In this document: positions 9,919-29,775 of the stretch, piece by piece | How the letters are laid out: each line of letters opens with the position of its first letter | Position numbering within the stretch: the first letter of the stretch is position 1 | Assembly (NCBI GenBank): GCA_963170125.1 | Contig: CAUJFI010000020.1 | Span: 1-64,000, forward strand | Direction: 5' to 3' | Origin: Deinococcota bacterium | Lineage (GTDB): Bacteria; Deinococcota; Deinococci; Deinococcales; Trueperaceae | DNA: 64,000 bases | Made by a program: the position numbers and the translations under genes | Notes under the pieces: generated by a model | Told to the model about the DNA's origin: nothing | Databases searched by the model: none | Seen by the model: only the letters and a program-made list of their open reading frames with translations

Positions 9919-11742
9919 ATGTCACGACGTCTACTCTTGTTCATGATCGCCATCGTCGCCGCGGGCGGCCTATTGATCGGGTGTGGAGGCAGCACACCGG
10001 CCCCCCAACCGCCCACCGGCCTGAGCGCCGCCCCCGGCATCGCTGCTGTTGGCGAGGTAGTCACGCTCACCGGCCTGCACCTCGGCAGTAGCGCGGGCAC
10101 CCTCAGCCTAGGCGGCACGCCAGTGACGGCCACCAGCTGGGCCGACGCCGAGGTCGTGTTCACCGTTCCCCCCACGGCCGCGCAGGGTCCGCAAACGGTG
10201 ACCCTCACCACGGCGGTAGGCTCGGCCACCACCGGCCTGTTCGTCGGGGTCGACTTCCCGAGCGGCACGCTCGAGAGCCTCGCGGCCCTTGCCCTACCCA
10301 AGGGCACGGCGGTGCGCCTCGGCGCCGGCACCTTCGCGGCCTCGTCGGAGGTGAGGCTGGATAACCTCAGCCTCTACGGCCGCGGCCCCGGCAGCACCAT
10401 CGTCCAGAACGCCTTCCCGAACCCTCTCTACCTCCTCGCCGACGACGGCTACGAGCTCACCCTTGAAAGCTTGACGCTGCGCACCGACGCCACCGCGATC
10501 GTGCCAAGCGCGGCAGTCCTCCCTGCCTCCCTCGGAGCAGCCGAGTCCGGCTCCGCCTGGACCACCCGAGCGTTCACGGTCGATGACCTGGCGCCCGCCG
10601 CGGCCGCGCAGACCATCACCTCACAAGCGTTGGCACCGACGAGCTACACGCTGCGCGGCGTGGCCATTGAGCCGGCTTCCGCCACGCCGTTCGGCCTGGT
10701 CACCTTGGATCCGGCAGGCCCTGGCATCTACTACCCCGGGGCCATCCACGTTAGCGACGTCACCGTAACGGGGGTTCCACTTGCGATCATGGTGGCGGGG
10801 GACGTCGATCTCAACGAGGTCACGTCCACCGGGTCCGGCGGGGTGGTGGCGCTCTCGTTCACCCAACACGCGCAGATCAACGACCTTAAGGTCTCGACCG
10901 CGGGCGGCGGTGGCTTCTTGGCCGAGGGCACCTTACTCGGCGGCGGCCGCGGCCTCACGCTCACCAACTCGCAGATCACGGTCGTCGACGGCGACATCAC
11001 GCTTTACGGCTCGGTCCCCATCAGCATGCCGCTGGGCGGGCCAACCGCGATCACGGGCAACAAGTTCATCGCCCGAGACACGGACCCGCTCGACGGCATC
11101 GACTGGGGCGTGATCGAGTTCATGACCCTGCTGGGCAGCGCCGACTTCTCCAACAACGAGGTCACCGCCGAGGGCGGTTTCGTGTTCGAAAGCCAAGAAG
11201 CGGCTACCCGCATGCGCGCGAACACCTTCACGCTCGGGTCGGCCGACTACCCCACCACCGAGTTCAGCTTCGGGGTGGCTGGCGGCATCCTCGCCCTCGA
11301 AACCAACCACGCCGAGTTCCTGAGCACGGGCGGGTTGCGCGTTGACGCCGAGGGCGGGCAAGCCACCCTCACAGGCAACACCGTCACTGGCCACAGCGAC
11401 ACGGGCACGGCCCTTTACCTCCACCACGAGGATGAAGAGTTGACCTTCACAGCCACCGGCAACACGTTCAGCTCGTTCGGCCAGGCCCTCTTCATCGACC
11501 GGGACACTGGGTTCGCCGAAACCCTGACCGCCCGGATCAACGACAACGTCTTCGACTTCCCGATCGACGCGGCGCCCAAGGCCGCCACCGTGAACGACTT
11601 CCTCGCGACGGACGGCACCCTCGACGCGCGCAACAACCGCTGGGGTAGCAACACCTCAGCGGCTACCGTCGCGAGCTACGTCGCGTACACGGGCACCAGC
11701 GACCCTGACACGCTCCAGGTCGCTCCGATCACGCAACCGTAA
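9919..11742 (+). CDS. TIG-domain plus right-handed beta-helix lipoprotein
   Basis: The 607-residue protein has a lipoprotein signal peptide with lipobox LIGC (Cys about residue 23), so it is probably membrane-anchored outside the cytoplasm. Residues about 35-110 form an IPT/TIG immunoglobulin-like domain (GEVVTLTGLHLGSSAGTLSLGG). The remainder shows the regular short turns of a pectate-lyase-like parallel beta-helix (for example GNTVTGHSDTGTALYL). Such proteins bind or cleave polysaccharides. ATG 9919 was chosen because GGAACGGAGG precedes it and the signal peptide starts there. It sits back to back with the flippase gene and may process or anchor the exported glycan. Confidence 0.75.
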   Translation: MSRRLLLFMIAIVAAGGLLIGCGGSTPAPQPPTGLSAAPGIAAVGEVVTLTGLHLGSSAGTLSLGGTPVTATSWADAEVVFTVPPTAAQGPQTVTLTTAVGSATTGLFVGVDFPSGTLESLAALALPKGTAVRLGAGTFAASSEVRLDNLSLYGRGPGSTIVQNAFPNPLYLLADDGYELTLESLTLRTDATAIVPSAAVLPASLGAAESGSAWTTRAFTVDDLAPAAAAQTITSQALAPTSYTLRGVAIEPASATPFGLVTLDPAGPGIYYPGAIHVSDVTVTGVPLAIMVAGDVDLNEVTSTGSGGVVALSFTQHAQINDLKVSTAGGGGFLAEGTLLGGGRGLTLTNSQITVVDGDITLYGSVPISMPLGGPTAITGNKFIARDTDPLDGIDWGVIEFMTLLGSADFSNNEVTAEGGFVFESQEAATRMRANTFTLGSADYPTTEFSFGVAGGILALETNHAEFLSTGGLRVDAEGGQATLTGNTVTGHSDTGTALYLHHEDEELTFTATGNTFSSFGQALFIDRDTGFAETLTARINDNVFDFPIDAAPKAATVNDFLATDGTLDARNNRWGSNTSAATVASYVAYTGTSDPDTLQVAPITQP

Positions 11743-17411: not shown

Positions 17412-17465
17412 CTACGTCGGGGGTCAGGGGAGCGTGGCCGTGGACGCTGAGCGCGACCACTTCCT

Positions 17466-17480
17466 TATACTGGCAGTATG
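17466..17480 (+). promoter_or_regulatory. Leaderless -10 box and start-codon palindrome
   Basis: TATACT (17466-17471) lies 6 bases before ATG 17478 and no Shine-Dalgarno precedes it, so transcription probably starts at the ATG. ATACTG-G-CAGTAT (17467-17479) is a perfect inverted repeat overlapping both. A -35 is not clear (TGGACG at 17441-17446 has 19-bp spacing). Confidence 0.55.
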
Positions 17481-20400
17481 CTCCTCCGCACCCTCGGCGG
17501 TGTGGCGCTGCAGGGAGCTTCGTTCCGTCGCCTGAAACCGCTCCTGATGCTGGCCTACCTCGCCTTGGAAGGGCCGAAGGACCGTCGCTACCTGGCCGAA
17601 CTGTTCTGGCCGGAGGCGGCCGACCCCAGGCAGAGCCTAGCCGTGGCCGTTTGGCAGTTGCGGCGCGCCTCGCCCGGAGTCCTGCGCGTGGACGACCAAG
17701 TGATCGCGGCCGTCGTCGAGTGCGACGCCACCTTGCTTCGTGATGCGGCAATCGATGGCGAGTGGCGTGACGTGGTGGACCTGTACGGCGGGCCCTTCCT
17801 CGAGGGTGCCGACGTCGACGCCGGCAACGCCGAGCTGGAGGAGTGGCTGTACGGCACACGAGAAGCGTTGTCCGTGCTGACCCAGAACGCGCTGATCGCG
17901 CTCGCAGAGGAGCACCTGTCGGTCGGCGACTTGCGAGGCGCAGCGCGGCTCAGCGAACGAGCCGCGACGATCGTGCGTGACCTGGCCACCGCTCAGCCGG
18001 AGTGGCTCTCGCGTCTTCATGCGTTGCTGGTCGCGACCGGCAACCCGCGGTCCGTGGCGGTGGCGAAGGAGGCCGCGGCCTTCGGCGTCACGTTGTCCGA
18101 GCACGCCGACCGGAACGCCGACGACGTCCCGCTGCCCGAGCACAACTTGCCCAACCTCATCGCCCCGTTCGTCGGTCGCGACCAGGAGCTGCGCGACCTG
18201 GAGGCGCTGCTCGAGCGCGGGGAGCGGCTGGTGACCATCACAGGGCTCGGCGGGATGGGCAAGACGCGTCTCGCGATGGCCCTCGCTAGGCGGGTCGTGA
18301 ACGGACGCCGGTTCACTCGCGTCTACTTCGTTCCGTGCGGCGTCGAGAGGTCGGATCACGTGCTGACCCAGGTCGCTGCCGTGGCTGCCCCGCGAACCGG
18401 GGCGCCCCCGCTGACCAGCTTGCGGCGGGCGTTCGGCGACGAGGGCACTTTACTCGTGCTGGACGGCCTCGACCAGGTGGCCGGTGACGCGCAGCAGCTC
18501 GTCGAGCTGCTCGAGGCCTGCCCTCTCGTCAGGCTGGTTGTCACTTCGCGCGAGCCGCTGGGCCTGGCAGCGGAGTCCCTTTACCCGCTCGGCGGCCTCC
18601 CTCTGCCCGGAAGCGCGGCCGAGGCGCTGGCAGGCACCGGAGAGACGAGCGGTCTGGACCTGTACGTCCTCACCGCTCGCCGTTTCGACCCCCGGTTCGC
18701 CCTGGAGCAAGGGAACGCGAGCTTGGTGCTCGGCATCTGCACGCGCTTGGCCGGCGCGCCGCTCGGGATCGAGCTGGCAGCGTCGCTGGCCTCCGTCGTG
18801 TCGCCTGAGGAGCTGGAACGCGAGCTGGAGGCGGACCTCGACACGCTGGTCAGTGTCAGGTCCACGACCAACCCGCAGCACACCAGCCTGCGCGTCGTGT
18901 TCGAGCGCTCCTGGAGCCTCTTGAGCGACGCCGAGCGTGGCGCGCTGTCGGGTTGCTCCGTCTTCCAGGGCGGCTTCACGCGCATAGCGGCCGCCGCGGT
19001 GCTGCGGCTGGACGTGCGGCTGCTCACCGCGCTCCTCGACCGGTCGCTCGTGTGGCGGGCGGGAGGGAGGTACGACTTGCACCCGCTCGTGAAGCAGTAC
19101 GCGGGCGAGAAGCTGAGCGAGCGGCCGGACGCCGACGAGCTGCTAGCGCGCCACGCTGAGCACTTCTGCGGCCTCGTGGAGTCGAAGAGCCGCTTCGCCT
19201 TGAGAGCCGGTCAAAGCGCGGCGTTCGACGAGCTGGACCGGGATCATGCGAACGTACGGGCAGCGTGGGATTGGGCCGGGAAGGCCGGGCGCCATGACGT
19301 GCTCGAGCGGATGTTACCCATGTTGGCCAGCTACCTCGCCGACCGCCGGCCCTCGGACGAGCGTATCCGGACCATGGACGCCGCTCTGGCGCGGGTGGAC
19401 CCCGATTCGGCGCTGACGGCGCGCCTCTTGCTGGAGCGAGGGCAGTTCCTGACGTACGTTGACCCCTCCGAGTCACGCAAGACCCTGGAGCAAGCGCTGC
19501 TCCTCGCCCGTAGACACCATAGCGAGCGTCGCGCGGGGCCATGGCTCTACGCCTTGGGTCGCACGCTCATGCACCTTGGCGACTTGGCTGGCGCGCGGAG
19601 CGCCTACCGTGAAGCCGCGGAGCGGTTGGCCGGCAGCGCCGACGAGGAGCTCCTCGGCGGCTGCCTCTCGAACCTGGCGATGACCAGTACGGACGCTAGG
19701 GAGATGGAGCGCCTGTTCACCGAGGCCATCTCGGTCTGCCGACGCACGGGTAACGTCTCCTACCTCGTCAAGGTGCTGCTCAACCTCGGCGATACGCTCG
19801 AGAACGCGCACGGCGACTACGCGGGCGCGTTGGCGCTCCAGCGCGAGGCACTGGCCCTGGAGCGAGCCGAGATCGGGCGACCACAACTCTTGATCTACTT
19901 GGGTTGCACCTGCGCACACCATCTCGCGACGCTGGGCGACCTGGAAGCCGCCGAACGACAGCTGGAGGAGGTCAGGGACCTGACCGCCCCACGGGAGCCG
20001 TGGGACGTAGCGCCGTGGATGCTGGCGATGCCGAGCAGCTGGGCGCGAGTCTTCATCCACTACGCCCGCGGCGAGGAGGACCTCGCCCGCTCGGTCGGAG
20101 CACAAGTCCAGGACGATGTCGTCTGGACGCTCTTGGCATGGATGGCGCTCGACGAAGGCGACCCTGCCGCCGCGGCACCGTATCTGCGCAGCCTGGGCGA
20201 GCTTGCCGAGGCCCCTTGCGACGCCCGGACCGGGTTACGGCTGAAGGCGTCGTGCAGCCTGCTGAGCGCCATGAGCGAGGCACTCACAGCGGCCTCCTCC
20301 CGCCACGAGCCAGCGGGGCAGGGGTCGAGCCCCGGCTTGCCTCACCTGCTCGAGGCGCTCGAGATCATCGCTGCATCCAGCCTGGTACCCCTGGCGTTCG

Positions 20401-20645
20401 AAGCGTTCATCGTCGCGCACGCCGTCGCACCGGAGGTGGTCGGGAGGGAGTGGCTCGAGCTGGCGGCCACGCAAGCGCGCGCTCCCATGCACGCGCGGCG
20501 GCGCGCCGGCAACTTGTTGACCGCGTGGCCGGCGGGCGAGCGCATGCCGCCCTCGTCTCCACCCGTGGCTGCGGCTGTACCCCTCACGTCAGAAGCCGTG
20601 GTGGAGGCGGCCCGAGACCTGATGCGGCGGCTGTCGCCTGCCTAG
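17478..20645 (+). CDS. SARP/BTAD-type regulator with NB-ARC ATPase and TPR domains
   Basis: The 1055-residue protein has four parts. Residues 1-75 form a Trans_reg_C-like winged helix (LKPLLMLAYLALEGPKDRRY, LAELFWPEA). A BTAD helical domain (about 80-195) contains LYGGPFLEGADV and AELEEWLY. A STAND/NB-ARC ATPase follows, with P-loop ITGLGGMGKTRLA near 252-264 and Walker B LLVLDGLDQV near 323. A long TPR array runs from about 600 to the end. It would act as a signal-gated transcription activator that oligomerises with ATP. The convergent binding-protein gene at 20709-22451 has 11-bp-phased repeats in its promoter, as expected for a SARP target. Confidence 0.85.
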   Translation: MLLRTLGGVALQGASFRRLKPLLMLAYLALEGPKDRRYLAELFWPEAADPRQSLAVAVWQLRRASPGVLRVDDQVIAAVVECDATLLRDAAIDGEWRDVVDLYGGPFLEGADVDAGNAELEEWLYGTREALSVLTQNALIALAEEHLSVGDLRGAARLSERAATIVRDLATAQPEWLSRLHALLVATGNPRSVAVAKEAAAFGVTLSEHADRNADDVPLPEHNLPNLIAPFVGRDQELRDLEALLERGERLVTITGLGGMGKTRLAMALARRVVNGRRFTRVYFVPCGVERSDHVLTQVAAVAAPRTGAPPLTSLRRAFGDEGTLLVLDGLDQVAGDAQQLVELLEACPLVRLVVTSREPLGLAAESLYPLGGLPLPGSAAEALAGTGETSGLDLYVLTARRFDPRFALEQGNASLVLGICTRLAGAPLGIELAASLASVVSPEELERELEADLDTLVSVRSTTNPQHTSLRVVFERSWSLLSDAERGALSGCSVFQGGFTRIAAAAVLRLDVRLLTALLDRSLVWRAGGRYDLHPLVKQYAGEKLSERPDADELLARHAEHFCGLVESKSRFALRAGQSAAFDELDRDHANVRAAWDWAGKAGRHDVLERMLPMLASYLADRRPSDERIRTMDAALARVDPDSALTARLLLERGQFLTYVDPSESRKTLEQALLLARRHHSERRAGPWLYALGRTLMHLGDLAGARSAYREAAERLAGSADEELLGGCLSNLAMTSTDAREMERLFTEAISVCRRTGNVSYLVKVLLNLGDTLENAHGDYAGALALQREALALERAEIGRPQLLIYLGCTCAHHLATLGDLEAAERQLEEVRDLTAPREPWDVAPWMLAMPSSWARVFIHYARGEEDLARSVGAQVQDDVVWTLLAWMALDEGDPAAAAPYLRSLGELAEAPCDARTGLRLKASCSLLSAMSEALTAASSRHEPAGQGSSPGLPHLLEALEIIAASSLVPLAFEAFIVAHAVAPEVVGREWLELAATQARAPMHARRRAGNLLTAWPAGERMPPSSPPVAAAVPLTSEAVVEAARDLMRRLSPA

Positions 20646-20657
20646 CCGAGGAACGGG

Positions 20658-20690
20658 GCGGGGGCGGGCCGAGGAGGTCCCGTCCCCCGC
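20658..20690. terminator. Bidirectional terminator between convergent genes
   Basis: GCGGGGGCGGG (20658-20668) pairs with CCCGTCCCCCGC (20679-20690), with one bulged base and a 10-base loop. It lies between the stops of the regulator and the binding-protein gene, so it can serve both. Confidence 0.65.
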
Positions 20691-20708
20691 ATGCAAGCGG
20701 TTCGGAGG

Positions 20709-22451
20709 CTATTCGGCTTTGCTGAGGTCTGACCACCTGATCTCGGTGAACATCGGGTTGCGGTAGGCGCCGGACACCTTGTCGCTCACGACGAGCGTGT
20801 ACGGGAAGCTCGGCAGGAGAGCGAACGGTGCGTCCTCGTAGGCGAGCCTGCCGACCTGGCGGTACAGCTCGTCGCGTTTCGCTGAGTCGAACTCGGTGCG
20901 CGCCTGGGCGATCAGCCGGTCGATCTCCTCGTTCTTGTACCCGAAGCGCGCCGTGATCGACGTGGATGACTGGTACCAATCCGCCATGAACTCGTACGCG
21001 TCCGGGAAGCTCGCGTAGCCCGCAGCGTTGGCCCACGGCAGCTGCATCTCGGCCCACGCACGCGCCTCCTGCTCGGGGCTCAAGTCGACGAGGTCGATGG
21101 TGAACTTCGGGTTCATCGCCTCCAACGTGTCCTTGAACGCCTGGGTTATCCAATCGTCACTCGGTCCGGCCAGGTACATGCCGGTCTCCCACAGCTTCCC
21201 GCCCCAGGCGGCCCGGCAGTGCTCCTCGGCCTTGTCAAGGTCGAGTTTGTAGTGGGGGATGGTGGGATCGTAGGCTGGGTAGAAAGGCAAGAGGATCATG
21301 TTCGGGTAGAACGAACCGTCGCCGGCGTACTGGGGGTCGTCCTCCCCGGTATCCCAGGCGTAGGCGAAGCACTTGCGTGCGTCGACGTCCGAGAAGAAGT
21401 CCGGCGGCACCCCGAACCCGTCGAGCTTCCCCGTGCCGATCAGGACGTTGTCCGAAGGGCTCATCATCTGGTTGAAGAAGATGGCTCCCACGACCCGTAT
21501 GCCCCCTGGGAGCGTCGGGTCTGTCGACGGGTCGAGCACCTTGACCCCGGGCCGGTCCTCGAGCTCGGAGAGCGGGGTCATGCGGACGTCGATCTGATCG
21601 ACCTCGCCCGCTACGAGCGCGGCGACCCGCGCCTCCTCGTCCGGGACCACCTCGTAGACCACCGTCTCGACCTGCGGCGCGGGACCCCAGTAGTCGGGGT
21701 TCCTCTCTGCGACCAGCCGCACTCCCGGCTCCCAAGACGCCAACCGGAATGCGCCGGTGCCGCCGGCATGGTCGTGAAGGTACCCCTCGCTTAGGTCGCT
21801 CGCGAGCAGGTCGCGCCAGGTCGCTTCCGTCCCGTCCCAACCGCCGTTCCCCTTGGCGAGCTCGCTATCGATGACGAAGTAGCGCGGGCTCATCAGGCTG
21901 GCGAACAGGATGGGATCCGGCTCCAAGGAGCGTATGACGACCGTGTGGTCGTCCAGGCACTCGACGGCAGCATCGATCCGACCCCAGTAATCGGCGTACT
22001 CCTCGTCGCTACCTGCCTCGCCGAGCTCGCTGAGGGCGTCCGTAGCCGTACCCAAGAGCGACTGGCCCACGAAACCGGGATCGAGGATCAACGCCCGCTC
22101 GATGGAGTACTCCACGTCCGCGCACGTGAAGGGGTTGCCGCTATGGAACCTCACCCCTGAGCGGAGGTGGAAGGTATGGGTGCGCCCATCGTCCGAGAGG
22201 TCGTGACCTGTGGCCAGCTGCGGCGTGAGGTCGATCGTGGCGCCGCTGTAACCGTACAGACCTTCGTAGAGGTTCTCGATGACGCTCTGGCCCCACGGTG
22301 AGTAGGAGCCGAGCGGATCCAGTGTCTCCGCGTCGAACATCCGCTGGAACACGTATGACTGGCCGAGCGCTAGGCACGCGACCAGCAGGGCCAGCGAGAG
22401 GATGACCTTGGCGCTCAGGCTCATGGCTCGTTGAACTGTGGTGTTCATCAT
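20709..22451 (-). CDS. ABC transporter family 5 solute-binding protein (orphan)
   Basis: The 580-residue protein has a signal peptide (about residues 10-31, ending near CLALGQ). It then has the SBP_bac_5 fold: LATGHDLSDDGRTHTFHLRSG near 80-100, FTCADVEYSIERAL, and the GTGAFRLASWEPG motif near 225. Members bind peptides, nickel, opines or oligosaccharides for import. No permease or ATPase genes adjoin it, so it must use a transporter encoded elsewhere. ATG 22451 is preceded by GAGGAGGAAGAGGG. Three GTTGANC direct repeats and a TAACCT -10 lie upstream, suggesting control by the adjacent SARP-like regulator. Confidence 0.85.
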   Translation of the reverse strand: MMNTTVQRAMSLSAKVILSLALLVACLALGQSYVFQRMFDAETLDPLGSYSPWGQSVIENLYEGLYGYSGATIDLTPQLATGHDLSDDGRTHTFHLRSGVRFHSGNPFTCADVEYSIERALILDPGFVGQSLLGTATDALSELGEAGSDEEYADYWGRIDAAVECLDDHTVVIRSLEPDPILFASLMSPRYFVIDSELAKGNGGWDGTEATWRDLLASDLSEGYLHDHAGGTGAFRLASWEPGVRLVAERNPDYWGPAPQVETVVYEVVPDEEARVAALVAGEVDQIDVRMTPLSELEDRPGVKVLDPSTDPTLPGGIRVVGAIFFNQMMSPSDNVLIGTGKLDGFGVPPDFFSDVDARKCFAYAWDTGEDDPQYAGDGSFYPNMILLPFYPAYDPTIPHYKLDLDKAEEHCRAAWGGKLWETGMYLAGPSDDWITQAFKDTLEAMNPKFTIDLVDLSPEQEARAWAEMQLPWANAAGYASFPDAYEFMADWYQSSTSITARFGYKNEEIDRLIAQARTEFDSAKRDELYRQVGRLAYEDAPFALLPSFPYTLVVSDKVSGAYRNPMFTEIRWSDLSKAE

Positions 22452-22498
22452 CCCTCTTCCTCCTCGGTAGGTTCGCTGCGTTCTCGAACCGTGCCGCG

Positions 22499-22542
22499 AG
22501 GTTAGGGGGACGGGATCAACGACGGCTCAACCGGCGGTCAAC
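22499..22542 (-). promoter_or_regulatory. Three 11-bp-phased heptamers upstream of a -10 box
   Basis: Read on the minus strand, GTTGACC, GTTGAGC and GTTGATC end at 22536, 22525 and 22514, exactly 11 bp apart (plus-strand TCAAC at 22516, 22527 and 22538). A -10-like TAACCT (22504-22499) begins 9 bp after the last heptamer, and no good -35 is present. Streptomyces SARP activators bind direct heptamers with 11-bp phasing placed about 8 bp upstream of -10, so this is a strong candidate binding site for the neighbouring BTAD regulator. Confidence 0.65.
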
Positions 22543-22701
22543 GGCGACCCACCGGGGCCCGCTGGCAGGCCGACCATGGCTCAGCGATCGGACGAAGGAC
22601 GCGGCGTGTGCTTCTCTCGTCGGCGCTTCCTCGGTTGCCGCCGTCTCTCGTCATCAGTGTGCTCATGCGCGGCGGCGGGTCGGTCACTGCTACCGCGAGG
22701 C

Positions 22702-23090
22702 CTACGAACGATACAGATCGTCTAGGTCCAGCAACACGATACGGCCGTCTTCCTCGGCCAGTCGTTCGAACTCGGCCGTGAAGCCTGCGGCACTCAGGTA
22801 CAGATGACCGGCCAAGCGCTCGCTCGTCAAGGCGTCCTTGGCCCAGCCGTGCCCGGACGCGGCGAGGCGCTCGAGGTCACGCAGCAAGCCGGTATGGACG
22901 CTCGGGCCTACGGGTGACGCCGACCACTTGACCTCACCCGTCAAGATCCGGTCGTCGTCCAACGTCGCGACCAGGTCTATCCCGGTGGAGCGGCGATCGC
23001 GGTCCTACCCTTCCCAACTCGACGATTCGATGGAGGGTTGCAGGCCTAGGCGCCCGCTCAGCGTCGCGTAGACCTCGCGACCGGCAGCAT
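22702..23090 (-). pseudogene. Remnant of a DUF234-type ATPase C-terminal domain
   Basis: On the minus strand the frame reads HAAGREVYATLSGRLG, then an in-frame TAG at 23005-23007. It then continues with STGIDLVATLDDDRILTGEVKWS and ends at 22702. GIDLVA...GEVKW is the PD-(D/E)XK-like core of DUF234, found at the end of archaeal/bacterial AAA ATPases. The ATPase part is missing, and the in-frame stop kills the rest. A short product could start at TTG 22962 but would lack the aspartate motif. Confidence 0.65.
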
Positions 23091-26431: not shown

Positions 26432-26485
26432 CGGCGTGCCCGCGAGGCGGTTCGAGCCGTGATCGATTTCAGCAGGAGGAAGACC

Positions 26486-27991
26486 ATGAAGCAACGTTAC
26501 CTGCAGTGGTTGCTCGCGACGGTGTTGGCGGCCCTCGCGTTCGGCAATGCCCAGAGCACGGTCACGGTGGCCGTCCCAGAGGGCCCTCCGGGCTTCGACC
26601 CCCAGAACAACAACCGGGCTGTCGCGTCGGGGATCTACATCAACCTCTTCGACTACCTGATCTTCAAGGACGCCGACGGCGCCTTCCAACCCGCGCTCGC
26701 CACGGCATGGGAACCGGTATCCGACACGGCGTGGCGCGTGGAACTGCGCCAGGGCGTCCTGTGGCACGACGGCGCCCCGTTCACGGCCGCCGACGTGGAG
26801 TTCACCTTCGAGCGGGTGGCCAACGACCCCGCCCTGCTGCGACACTCCTACTACGCGGGCATCACCGATGTCGAGGTGGTGAACGACCACGAGGTCATCT
26901 TCCACACCGCGGCGCCCGACCCGACCTTCTTGAGCGCCCTCAGCCGTAACGGCGCGAGCGTGATCCCTCGGCACTACTACGAGTCGGCGGGCGTCGAGAA
27001 GGCGTCGCTCGAGCCGATCGGCACGGGGCCGTACAAGTTCGTCGAGTACCGCACCGACGACCGGCTGGTCCTCGAGGCCTTCGACGACTACTGGGGCGGT
27101 CGCCCCCAGTTCGACAGGGCGGTGTTCCGGGTCATCCCCGAGTCGTCCACCGCCGTCAGCGAGTTGGTGACGGGCGGCGTGGACATCGTCACCTCAGTGA
27201 AGGTCTCCGAGGTCGCCCGCGTCGAGGCCTCCAGCTCCGCGCACATCGAGCGCGTCGGCAGCAACAGTACGCAGTACATCACCTTCAACGTCTCCGAGGG
27301 CCAAGTGACCGCCGACCCGCTCGTGCGCGCCGCCATCGACTACGCCGTTGACGATAGCCTGCTCGCCGAGGTCCTGACCGACGGCGCCGGCGTGCCCGTG
27401 CGGGCCAGGGTCTCGCCGGAGACCTCGTTCTCGCCGGCCGGCCTCTACGACACCTACCTCTACGACGTGGAGCGCGCCCGCGAGCTGTTGGCGGAGGCTG
27501 GTTACGCGGCAGGCGGCCTGACGGTGACTCTCATGGGCAACACGGGCCATGCCGACATCGCCGACCTCGTGGCGGCCATGCTCGCCGAGGTCGGGATCGG
27601 CACGAAGATCGAGTTGTTCGAGTCGAGCGTTTGGAACAGCAAGTACTGGCAGCCGGGCGACTTCACGAACATCGCGTTCGGCGCCTCGAGCGACTCCTCG
27701 TTCGACTACGGCAACTCCCTCATCGACCTGACGTGCCCCGACGGCGTGCATGCGCGCCGCAGCCACTGGTGCAACGAGGAGTACACCGACCTGGTCGACG
27801 CCGCTAACACGGAGTTCGACCCGGTCAAGCGCGCCGAGCTCCTCAGCGCTGCCACCGACATCCTGTTGGACGAGCGCCCACAGTACTACCTCTACAGCAA
27901 CGCGACGTTCGTGGGGGTCAGCGATCGACTCTCGTTCACGCCGCGCGCCGACTCGCTCATCGTCCTCGCGGAGACCACCGCGGCGCCCTAG
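26486..27991 (+). CDS. Family 5 solute-binding protein (peptide-type ABC importer)
   Basis: The 501-residue protein starts at ATG 26486 after AGGAGGAAG. The signal peptide ends near residue 23 (FGNAQ). The SBP_bac_5 features are LATAWEPVSDTAWRVELRQG, FTAADVEFTFERV and IGTGPYKFVEY. It captures peptides or similar ligands in the periplasm. It is followed within 3 bases by the first permease gene. It differs from the orphan binding protein at 20709-22451, so the two probably serve different ligands. Confidence 0.87.
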   Translation: MKQRYLQWLLATVLAALAFGNAQSTVTVAVPEGPPGFDPQNNNRAVASGIYINLFDYLIFKDADGAFQPALATAWEPVSDTAWRVELRQGVLWHDGAPFTAADVEFTFERVANDPALLRHSYYAGITDVEVVNDHEVIFHTAAPDPTFLSALSRNGASVIPRHYYESAGVEKASLEPIGTGPYKFVEYRTDDRLVLEAFDDYWGGRPQFDRAVFRVIPESSTAVSELVTGGVDIVTSVKVSEVARVEASSSAHIERVGSNSTQYITFNVSEGQVTADPLVRAAIDYAVDDSLLAEVLTDGAGVPVRARVSPETSFSPAGLYDTYLYDVERARELLAEAGYAAGGLTVTLMGNTGHADIADLVAAMLAEVGIGTKIELFESSVWNSKYWQPGDFTNIAFGASSDSSFDYGNSLIDLTCPDGVHARRSHWCNEEYTDLVDAANTEFDPVKRAELLSAATDILLDERPQYYLYSNATFVGVSDRLSFTPRADSLIVLAETTAAP

Positions 27992-27994
27992 GCG

Positions 27995-28933
27995 ATGACT
28001 GGTTACGTCCTACGCCGGCTTCTTCAGGTGATCCCGACACTTATCGGGATCACCTTGCTGGTGTTCGTGACGTTGAGGCTGTCCGGCGACCCCATCGCCG
28101 CCTACCTGGGCAGCGACGCCGCGGACAGCGCCGTGATCACGCCGGAGCAGGAAGCCGCCATCAGACAGCGTCTGGGGCTGGATCGCCCGCTCGCCGTCCA
28201 GTACCTGGTCTTCCTACGCAACGTGGCGCGGGGCGACTTCGGGCAGTCGTTCATCTACCAAGGGCGGCCGGCCGCGAGCCTCCTGCTCGAGCGCCTGCCC
28301 GCCACGGCCGCCTTGGCCGCCGCCGCCCTGGTGATCGCCATCCTGATCTCGCTGCCCGGGGGCATGCTGGCCGCCGTCAACCGCAACAAGGCGCCGGACA
28401 CCCTGGTGAACGTCTACTCGGTCATCGGCGACGCCATGCCGAACTTCTGGCTTGGGGTCATGTTGATCCTCCTGTTCAGCGTGAAGCTGGGCTGGTTGCC
28501 CGTGTCAGGCAGCGGCACCTGGCGCCACCTCGTCCTCCCCGCGCTCACCCTGGGAACGAGCATGGCCGCCCTCCAGACGCGGCTGATGCGCACCGGCCTC
28601 ATCGAGGCCCTGCAGCAGGACTACGTACGGACGGCGCGCGCGAAGGGGCTCACGCCCAGGACCGTGCTGTTCAAGCACGCCCTGCGCAACGCGGCGCTCG
28701 GCTACGTGACCCTGCTAGGCCTGGCCGTCCCCGGCCTCCTGGGCGGCTCCGTCGTGGTCGAACGGATCTTCGCCTGGCCCGGCATGGGGCTCCTCTTCAT
28801 CAACGGGCTCGGTGGACGCGACATGGCCCTGATCCAGGCGGTGGTCATCTTCTCGGCGGCGATGGTCATCCTCGCCAACCTGGGCGTCGACCTCCTCTAC
28901 ACCGTCATAGACCCGCGGATCCGGTACCAGTGA
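27995..28933 (+). CDS. DppB/OppB-type ABC permease
   Basis: The 312-residue protein has six membrane helices. The N-terminal YVLRRLLQVIPTLIGITLLVF segment is typical of DppB. The EAA loop (TARAKGLTPRTVLFKHALRNA, near 210-230) contacts the ATPase. It pairs with the next permease to import the ligand delivered by the upstream binding protein. Its stop overlaps the next start (GTGA). Confidence 0.9.
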   Translation: MTGYVLRRLLQVIPTLIGITLLVFVTLRLSGDPIAAYLGSDAADSAVITPEQEAAIRQRLGLDRPLAVQYLVFLRNVARGDFGQSFIYQGRPAASLLLERLPATAALAAAALVIAILISLPGGMLAAVNRNKAPDTLVNVYSVIGDAMPNFWLGVMLILLFSVKLGWLPVSGSGTWRHLVLPALTLGTSMAALQTRLMRTGLIEALQQDYVRTARAKGLTPRTVLFKHALRNAALGYVTLLGLAVPGLLGGSVVVERIFAWPGMGLLFINGLGGRDMALIQAVVIFSAAMVILANLGVDLLYTVIDPRIRYQ

Positions 28934-29775
28934 GAAGGCTGAAGGGCATCCTGCGCAACCCGCTGGCCGTCATCGGGGCGGCGCTCCTCCTCGCGTTCCT
29001 GCTGATAGCGGCGTTCGCGACGGCCCTCGCACCCCACGACCCCGCACTGCAGAACCTGCGCGCGCGCCTGCTGCCGCCCTTCTGGCTGGAAGGCGGAAGA
29101 CCGGAGTACCCGCTCGGCACCGACCAGCTGGGGCGCGACCTCCTGTCGCGCGTCCTCTACGGCAGCCGCGTGGCCGTGATGGTCGCCTTCGGCGCCACCA
29201 GCCTCGCCATGCTCATCGGCGTGCTGCTCGGCCTGATCTCCGGGTACTTCAGGGGCGCCTGGGACACCGCCATCATGCGGCTCGTCGACATCATCGTCTC
29301 GGTGCCCAACACCATCTTGTACCTGACCATCCTGGCGCTGGCCGGGCCGAGCCTGCCGCTGCTCATCCTCGTGATAGGGCTGCTTGGCTGGACCACCACG
29401 GCGAGGGTCATCCGCAGTGAGGTCCTGTCCCTCGGAAAGCGCGAGTACGTCGAAGCATCGCGCGCCCTCGGCAGACGCGAGGGCGCGACGGCCTTCAGGC
29501 ACGTGCTGCCCAACATCATGGGCAGCGTCATCGCGCTGGGAACGTTGAAAGCCTCCGCCACCATCATCATCGAGTCGACCCTCAGCTACCTCGGCTTCGG
29601 GGTCCAGCCGCCGACCCTGACGTGGGGTCAGCTGCTCTCGCAGGGTCAGCAGTACGTGTCGACCGCCTGGTGGCTCTCGACGTTCCCGGGGATCGCGATC
29701 ACGCTACTCTCCTTGAGCCTCATCTTCCTCGGCAACTGGCTTAGGGACGTGTTCGACCCCAGGGTCGCCCCGTAG
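28930..29775 (+). CDS. DppC/OppC-type ABC permease
   Basis: The 281-residue protein has an N-terminal helix, then PHDPALQNLRARLLPP and the LGTDQLGRDLLSRVLYGSR motif characteristic of DppC. Five further helices and an EAA loop (EASRALGRREGATAFRHVLPN) follow. It forms the membrane channel with the upstream DppB-like protein. The operon ends here; the DppD/DppF-type ATPases are absent from the window, so shared ATPases must be encoded elsewhere. Confidence 0.9.
   Translation: MRRLKGILRNPLAVIGAALLLAFLLIAAFATALAPHDPALQNLRARLLPPFWLEGGRPEYPLGTDQLGRDLLSRVLYGSRVAVMVAFGATSLAMLIGVLLGLISGYFRGAWDTAIMRLVDIIVSVPNTILYLTILALAGPSLPLLILVIGLLGWTTTARVIRSEVLSLGKREYVEASRALGRREGATAFRHVLPNIMGSVIALGTLKASATIIIESTLSYLGFGVQPPTLTWGQLLSQGQQYVSTAWWLSTFPGIAITLLSLSLIFLGNWLRDVFDPRVAP

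Follow-up and report, generated by a model that had tools for sequence, protein, structure and literature searches.

The solute-binding protein locus and its repeats

The window, i.e., the whole stretch of DNA analysed, comprises 64,000 nucleotides of contig CAUJFI010000020.1 from a member of the Trueperaceae (Deinococcota). It contains two convergent genes, P0001 and P0002, and a set of direct repeats upstream of the latter. The features are compiled here:

17460..17477, plus strand: repeat-free promoter of P0001, with its -10 element TATACT a few bases 5' of the ATG; transcript probably leaderless
17478..20645, plus strand: P0001, SARP-like regulator, with winged helix and BTAD-like helical domain (residues ~1-205), P-loop STAND ATPase (230-360) and TPR
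17613..17675, plus strand: codons for residues 46-66 of P0001, the recognition helix region; Q60 therein aligns with AfsR R92
20709..22451, minus strand: P0002, exported solute-binding protein of family 5 (SBP_bac_5; Pfam 5.4e-54), probable target
22499..22504, minus strand: -10 element TAACCT; the orthologues and the two paralogous promoters have a TA-starting hexamer at this position
22514..22520, minus strand: putative operator unit 3, GTTGATC, 9 bp to the -10 element
22525..22531, minus strand: putative operator unit 2, GTTGAGC, whose TTGAGC stands where a -35 hexamer would, with a 20-bp spacer
22536..22542, minus strand: putative operator unit 1, GTTGACC, sequence identical in G003

P0002 carries a signal sequence, its start codon is preceded by a GAGGAGG Shine-Dalgarno sequence, and no permease gene is found beside it. 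Further along the window (26459-29775, plus strand), another family-5 solute-binding protein is encoded together with two oligopeptide-type permeases, a possible partner for the permease-less P0002. A TATACT-like -10 element a few bases 5' of the ATG, as in P0001 (17460-17480, plus strand), recurs in most regulators of this type (e.g., L067, L105, L107, and L108); judged from the sequences, this suggests that their transcripts are leaderless. One report describes -10 elements adjoining the ORF as common in Deinococcus-Thermus (PMC12340547).

Read on the minus strand from 22542 to 22499, the repeat region is an exact match to GTTGACC-GCCG-GTTGAGC-CGTC-GTTGATC-CCGTCCCCC-TAACCT. The preliminary description had noted three GTTGANC heptamers at exact 11-bp spacing, ending 9 bp before a -10 element that lacked a good -35, and every part of this is borne out: the period is 11 bp, TAACCT is in place, the TTGAGC of the middle heptamer lies 20 bp and not 17 bp from it, and no sigma-70-type promoter was found across 20600-22900. 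Upstream of the repeats (~22700-22970, minus strand), an open stretch ending in LLDLDDLYRS-stop is conserved in G003 and resembles the tail of a broken gene.

Dinucleotide shuffles predict only 0.01 occurrences of the triple pattern per window, with up to three mismatches allowed; apart from the exact copy, the window holds only the same site read one unit out of register. Across all 179 contigs of the genome (3.08 Mb), one exact triple and two more with two mismatches were located, and the reversed control gave no match. Both two-mismatch sites precede genes of P0002 paralogues (C140, 49% identity; C126, 44%), where they stand 10 bp before TAGCCT and TAACCT, respectively. The genome scan for the triple run, proposed at the outset as a check, hence returned only the promoters of three paralogous binding-protein genes. 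The C126 site is located between the paralogue gene and a divergent second regulator, which is 44% identical to P0001.

Absence of the repeats from orthologous binding-protein genes had been named beforehand as an outcome that would refute the proposal; they proved to be conserved in all three orthologous promoters found. The promoter in G003 has the same three heptamers, that in G001 has GTTTAGT/GTTTAGC/GTTAGCA, and that in G004 has GTTTAGG/GTTAACC, with a gap of 9-10 bp to a TA-starting -10 hexamer in each case. A search of six genomes of the genus for two GTTNA units followed by TANCCT gave five matches (reversed control: none), one of which, in G002, consists of four units and separates a P0001-like regulator from a small exported protein. 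A five-unit array also lies beside a regulator in G004. At another locus (L106, ~10450-10530, plus strand), five 11-bp units are followed 10 bp on by TAGCCT; this array points into the ~500 bp that separate two tandem regulators, where no gene is evident downstream.

Resemblance of P0001 to AfsR and other SARPs

SARPs have been described as exclusive to actinobacteria or actinomycetes (PMC10972967, PMC7040171). The relatives of P0002 in named genomes belong mostly to the Trueperaceae, to Truepera, and to other Deinococcota, so that the initial placement of this system outside the actinomycetes was right. The neighboring regulator had been introduced as a winged-helix/BTAD/NB-ARC/TPR protein. 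Pfam recognizes the NB-ARC/NACHT-type P-loop ATPase and the TPR part; the BTAD-like domain is supported by fold only, as the Pfam BTAD profile (PF03704) does not match P0001. Of 26 family members, only two match this profile, and these weakly (E 0.005 at best), whereas other proteins of the same genome match it well. A canonical Pfam-BTAD protein with apparent GAF domains before the BTAD is encoded on the same contig, 12 kb past the window (G000:C20:76375-76809, minus strand), and represents a different SARP-type subfamily.

In the AF2 model of P0001 residues 1-251 (pLDDT 87), a winged helix is followed by a helical domain. A fold search of 350,542 PDB chains ranked AfsR in its initiation complex (8k60) first, with E 5.8e-6; no other match fell below 0.001. 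The TM-scores are moderate (0.44-0.55), as expected if the domain orientation differs. At the sequence level, neither single-sequence nor profile searches with the N-terminal domain retrieved a relative from the PDB, not even AfsR, and a search for related loci with P0001 as query found nothing. The second-best fold match, EmbR from Mycobacterium tuberculosis (2FEZ/2FF4), is actinobacterial and carries an FHA domain in place of the ATPase and TPR parts.

A SARP is expected to combine an OmpR-type winged helix and a following BTAD domain, direct repeats at 11 bp with the 3' one near the -10 element, and control of secondary-metabolite genes. It is also expected to activate transcription by contacting the repeats and sigma region 4; for P0001, activation is inferred only. 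The domain order is satisfied structurally, in the model, and not by Pfam; since the curated BTAD profile is unmatched, the claim is limited to 'SARP-like' and does not extend to membership in the catalogue. The repeat layout is satisfied, with 9 bp to the -10 element in the P0002 promoter and mostly 10 bp in relatives. The third feature is not, the targets being mainly exported proteins and lipoproteins.

The closest known system is AfsR-afsS of Streptomyces coelicolor (PMC10936776). AfsR is a large SARP and shares with P0001 the SARP-like N-terminal fold, the P-loop ATPase, and the TPR part. At the printed positions of the afsS promoter, GTTYATC extends from -28 to -22 and the -10 element from -12 to -7, leaving a gap of 9 bp, and the -35 hexamer TTCAGC lies 20 bp upstream of the -10 element (PMC10936776). 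The P0002 promoter has the same GTTnA core (AfsR, CGTT(T/C)ATCGNN), the same 11-bp period, the same 9 bp from GTTnANN to the -10 element, and the same 20 bp between '-35' hexamer and -10, so the likeness to Streptomyces SARP targets put forward earlier holds down to the layout of afsS. In contrast to afsS, three units are present, and a solute-binding protein takes the place of the antibiotic regulator as probable target. P0001 itself belongs to a different phylum, lacks a BTAD detectable by Pfam, and has a winged helix in which about two residues are missing ahead of the recognition helix. With respect to the DNA-contact residues of AfsR (W74, T88, R92, R94, K95), W44 and R62 are conserved in P0001 and R63 stands for K95, but V56 replaces T88 and Q60 replaces R92; positions 60 and 56 are among those that covary with the repeat bases (see below).

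A literature search for SARP targets in Deinococcus yielded an annotation-level mention only. Deide_19260 of Deinococcus deserti is listed as a 'SarP family' response regulator (COG3947) with unknown targets (PMC3564903); it comes from the same phylum and shares the annotated SARP-type DNA-binding domain, yet has a CheY-SARP two-component architecture. As a SARP-type response regulator had thus already been annotated in Deinococcus, the present system is not a wholly new kind.

Association and covariation across the Deinococcota

Regulators related to P0001 occur in 82 of the 111 Deinococcota genomes searched. Where repeats accompany them, these usually lie in the promoter divergent from the regulator, and their sequence is private to each regulator. 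For this reason a fixed GTTNA score gave little signal among more distant relatives (5 of 36 at p<=0.05) and was replaced by a sequence-blind statistic, which requires two heptamers at least 6/7 identical with [TC]ANNNT exactly 10 bp on, on the divergent strand within 250 bp. In the first set, 19 of 79 loci scored at period 11; periods 7-10 and 12-16 gave 0-2 each, and the other strand gave four. The 10-bp gap had been picked after inspection of these data, and a held-out set was therefore specified beforehand; in it, 14 of 40 new loci scored at period 11 and again 0-2 at other periods. Twelve of the 20 held-out loci from the same family (Trueperaceae) were positive and two of the 20 from other families, i.e., Trueperaceae show a strong association and the other families a weaker one. 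Positive loci outside the Trueperaceae include L096/L097 and L120; the related regulators L103, L104, L105, and L108 have no repeats nearby.

The products of the divergent genes are often exported. They include Big/cadherin-domain, WD40, beta-lactamase-family, and solute-binding proteins, and a lipobox was recognized by a simple rule in 15 of 33 (background ORFs: 10.7%). At four loci (L098, L268, L269, L276), from four genera, the divergent genes encode 187 residues of similar sequence and are accompanied by related repeats (GTTCGGG, GTTAGGG, GTTAGC/GTTAAC); the sequences suggest a conserved regulator-target pair of unknown function, with no Pfam match for the one member tested. Lipoprotein genes divergent from regulators were also seen at L092 and L085, with GGACGGA repeats at 11 bp; the downstream sequence of L085 is masked.

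The similarity of the repeats follows that of the recognition helix. Over 35 regulator-promoter pairs, similarity in residues 46-66 predicts similarity of the repeats (r 0.35; 0 of 3000 permutations as high), in contrast to the flanking residues 85-200 (r 0.065, partial -0.12). The top residue-base pair of all those tested joins residue 60 to unit base 3, with the combinations Q-T (15) and R-G (13). Between -30 and +7, its signal is confined to bases 3-4 of both units, and the held-out Q/R pairs were concordant in 12 of 12 cases (5/5 and 7/7). In the AfsR structure, R92 contacts T-27 and T88 the base pair at -25 (PMC10936776). Three alignments equate residue 60 with AfsR R92 and residue 56 with T88; T-27 corresponds to unit base 3 and base pair -25 to unit base 5, and residue 56 with base 5 ranks sixth. 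A tree built without the recognition helix calls for about ten Q/R changes but is poorly supported; the independent contrasts number one pair on well-supported branches and nine on all branches, and on the former the Q60/R60 test lacks power. The independence of the Q/R switches is consequently not proven.

Proposed operator assignment and competing explanations

Taken together, the site with its rarity and conservation, the SARP-like fold, the phylum-wide association, and the helix-base covariation, all of them computed, lead us to interpret the repeats, with a probability of roughly 0.83, as an operator through which a SARP-like activator (most likely P0001) switches on P0002. In the proposed mechanism, winged-helix protomers from the N-terminal part of P0001 would sit side by side on one face of the DNA, one heptamer each and one helical turn apart; such physical binding is inferred. 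Standing in for the -35 element, the protomers would bring RNA polymerase to the weak -10 element TAACCT. This recruitment would then switch on the gene of the exported solute-binding protein, activation as opposed to repression being inferred as well. The C-terminal P-loop ATPase and TPR part would presumably gate activation upon a signal, and any ligand or signal is likewise a matter of inference.

The geometry alone would also fit another class of factor. Regulators of the PhoB/OmpR type have a winged helix and bind direct repeats that lie one turn apart and replace the -35 element. A Pho box, 7+4 direct repeats, is nearly identical in geometry, so that the repeats could be a response-regulator box to which the nearby SARP-like gene is incidental. 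In Streptomyces the sites of PhoP and AfsR even overlap at afsS (PMC10972967). We regard this as improbable, chiefly because the residue-base covariation speaks against a common factor of the PhoB type. PhoB/OmpR-type regulators have a receiver domain and a common box sequence, in contrast to the P0001-type regulators with their individual repeats; even inside one genome, G021, the repeats differ by locus (GTTAGCG, GGTGACC, GTTCACG/GTTGAAG) and vary with the recognition helix of the regulator next to them. Moreover, near-sites in the source genome occur only at solute-binding protein genes. A search for pstS as a Pho box comparison found none. That the triple is mere coincidence, its TTGA-like words forming a weak -35 series without a dedicated activator, can practically be dismissed. 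The motif is short and TTGA does resemble half a -35 hexamer, as inferred from the letters, but this is met by the expectation of 0.01 per window, the conservation in orthologues, the wrong -35 spacing, and the outcome of the phylum-wide tests.

A further question is which regulator reads the operator. P0001 was first presented as the neighboring regulator, and its gene is indeed adjacent to P0002; being convergent, however, it does not adjoin the target promoter, and in this it departs from most relatives, which counts against our own assignment. The operator might then be real but read mainly by a paralogue (C126:5665 or C5:5224), with P0001 controlling something else. The sites on C20, C126, and C140 are nearly identical in sequence, and no such site accompanies the C5 regulator. 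On the other hand, the orthologues of P0001 and P0002 adjoin in G003 and G001 as well, in differing orientations, and we consider a paralogous reader unlikely. The regulator-target pairing proposed in the preliminary description finds phylum-wide support in position, spacing, and residue-base covariation; P0001 as the main actor, in place of the 44%-identical paralogue on C126, remains inferred.

For the family as a whole, a regulator of the P0001 type very probably acts as a SARP-like activator that reads an operator of its own, often for one exported protein, although binding, ligand, and expression data are lacking. Whether the Deinococcota possess a large, expanded set of SARP-like STAND ATPases with orthogonal operators that usually drive one exported protein apiece and can be read by a simple residue-base code, is a tentative generalization to which we assign somewhat less than even odds. 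It is also conceivable that the exported protein (in this locus, a stand-alone solute-binding protein) takes part in the loop by which its own regulator senses. The SARP-like family extends beyond actinomycetes, with operators that can be read from sequence for dozens of its members and that provide a set of potentially orthogonal activator-promoter pairs. The covariation at the R92/T-27 contact of AfsR amounts to a testable specificity code for DNA recognition of the SARP type, and the findings also suggest that activators of this class predate their antibiotic role or are more mobile than it implies.
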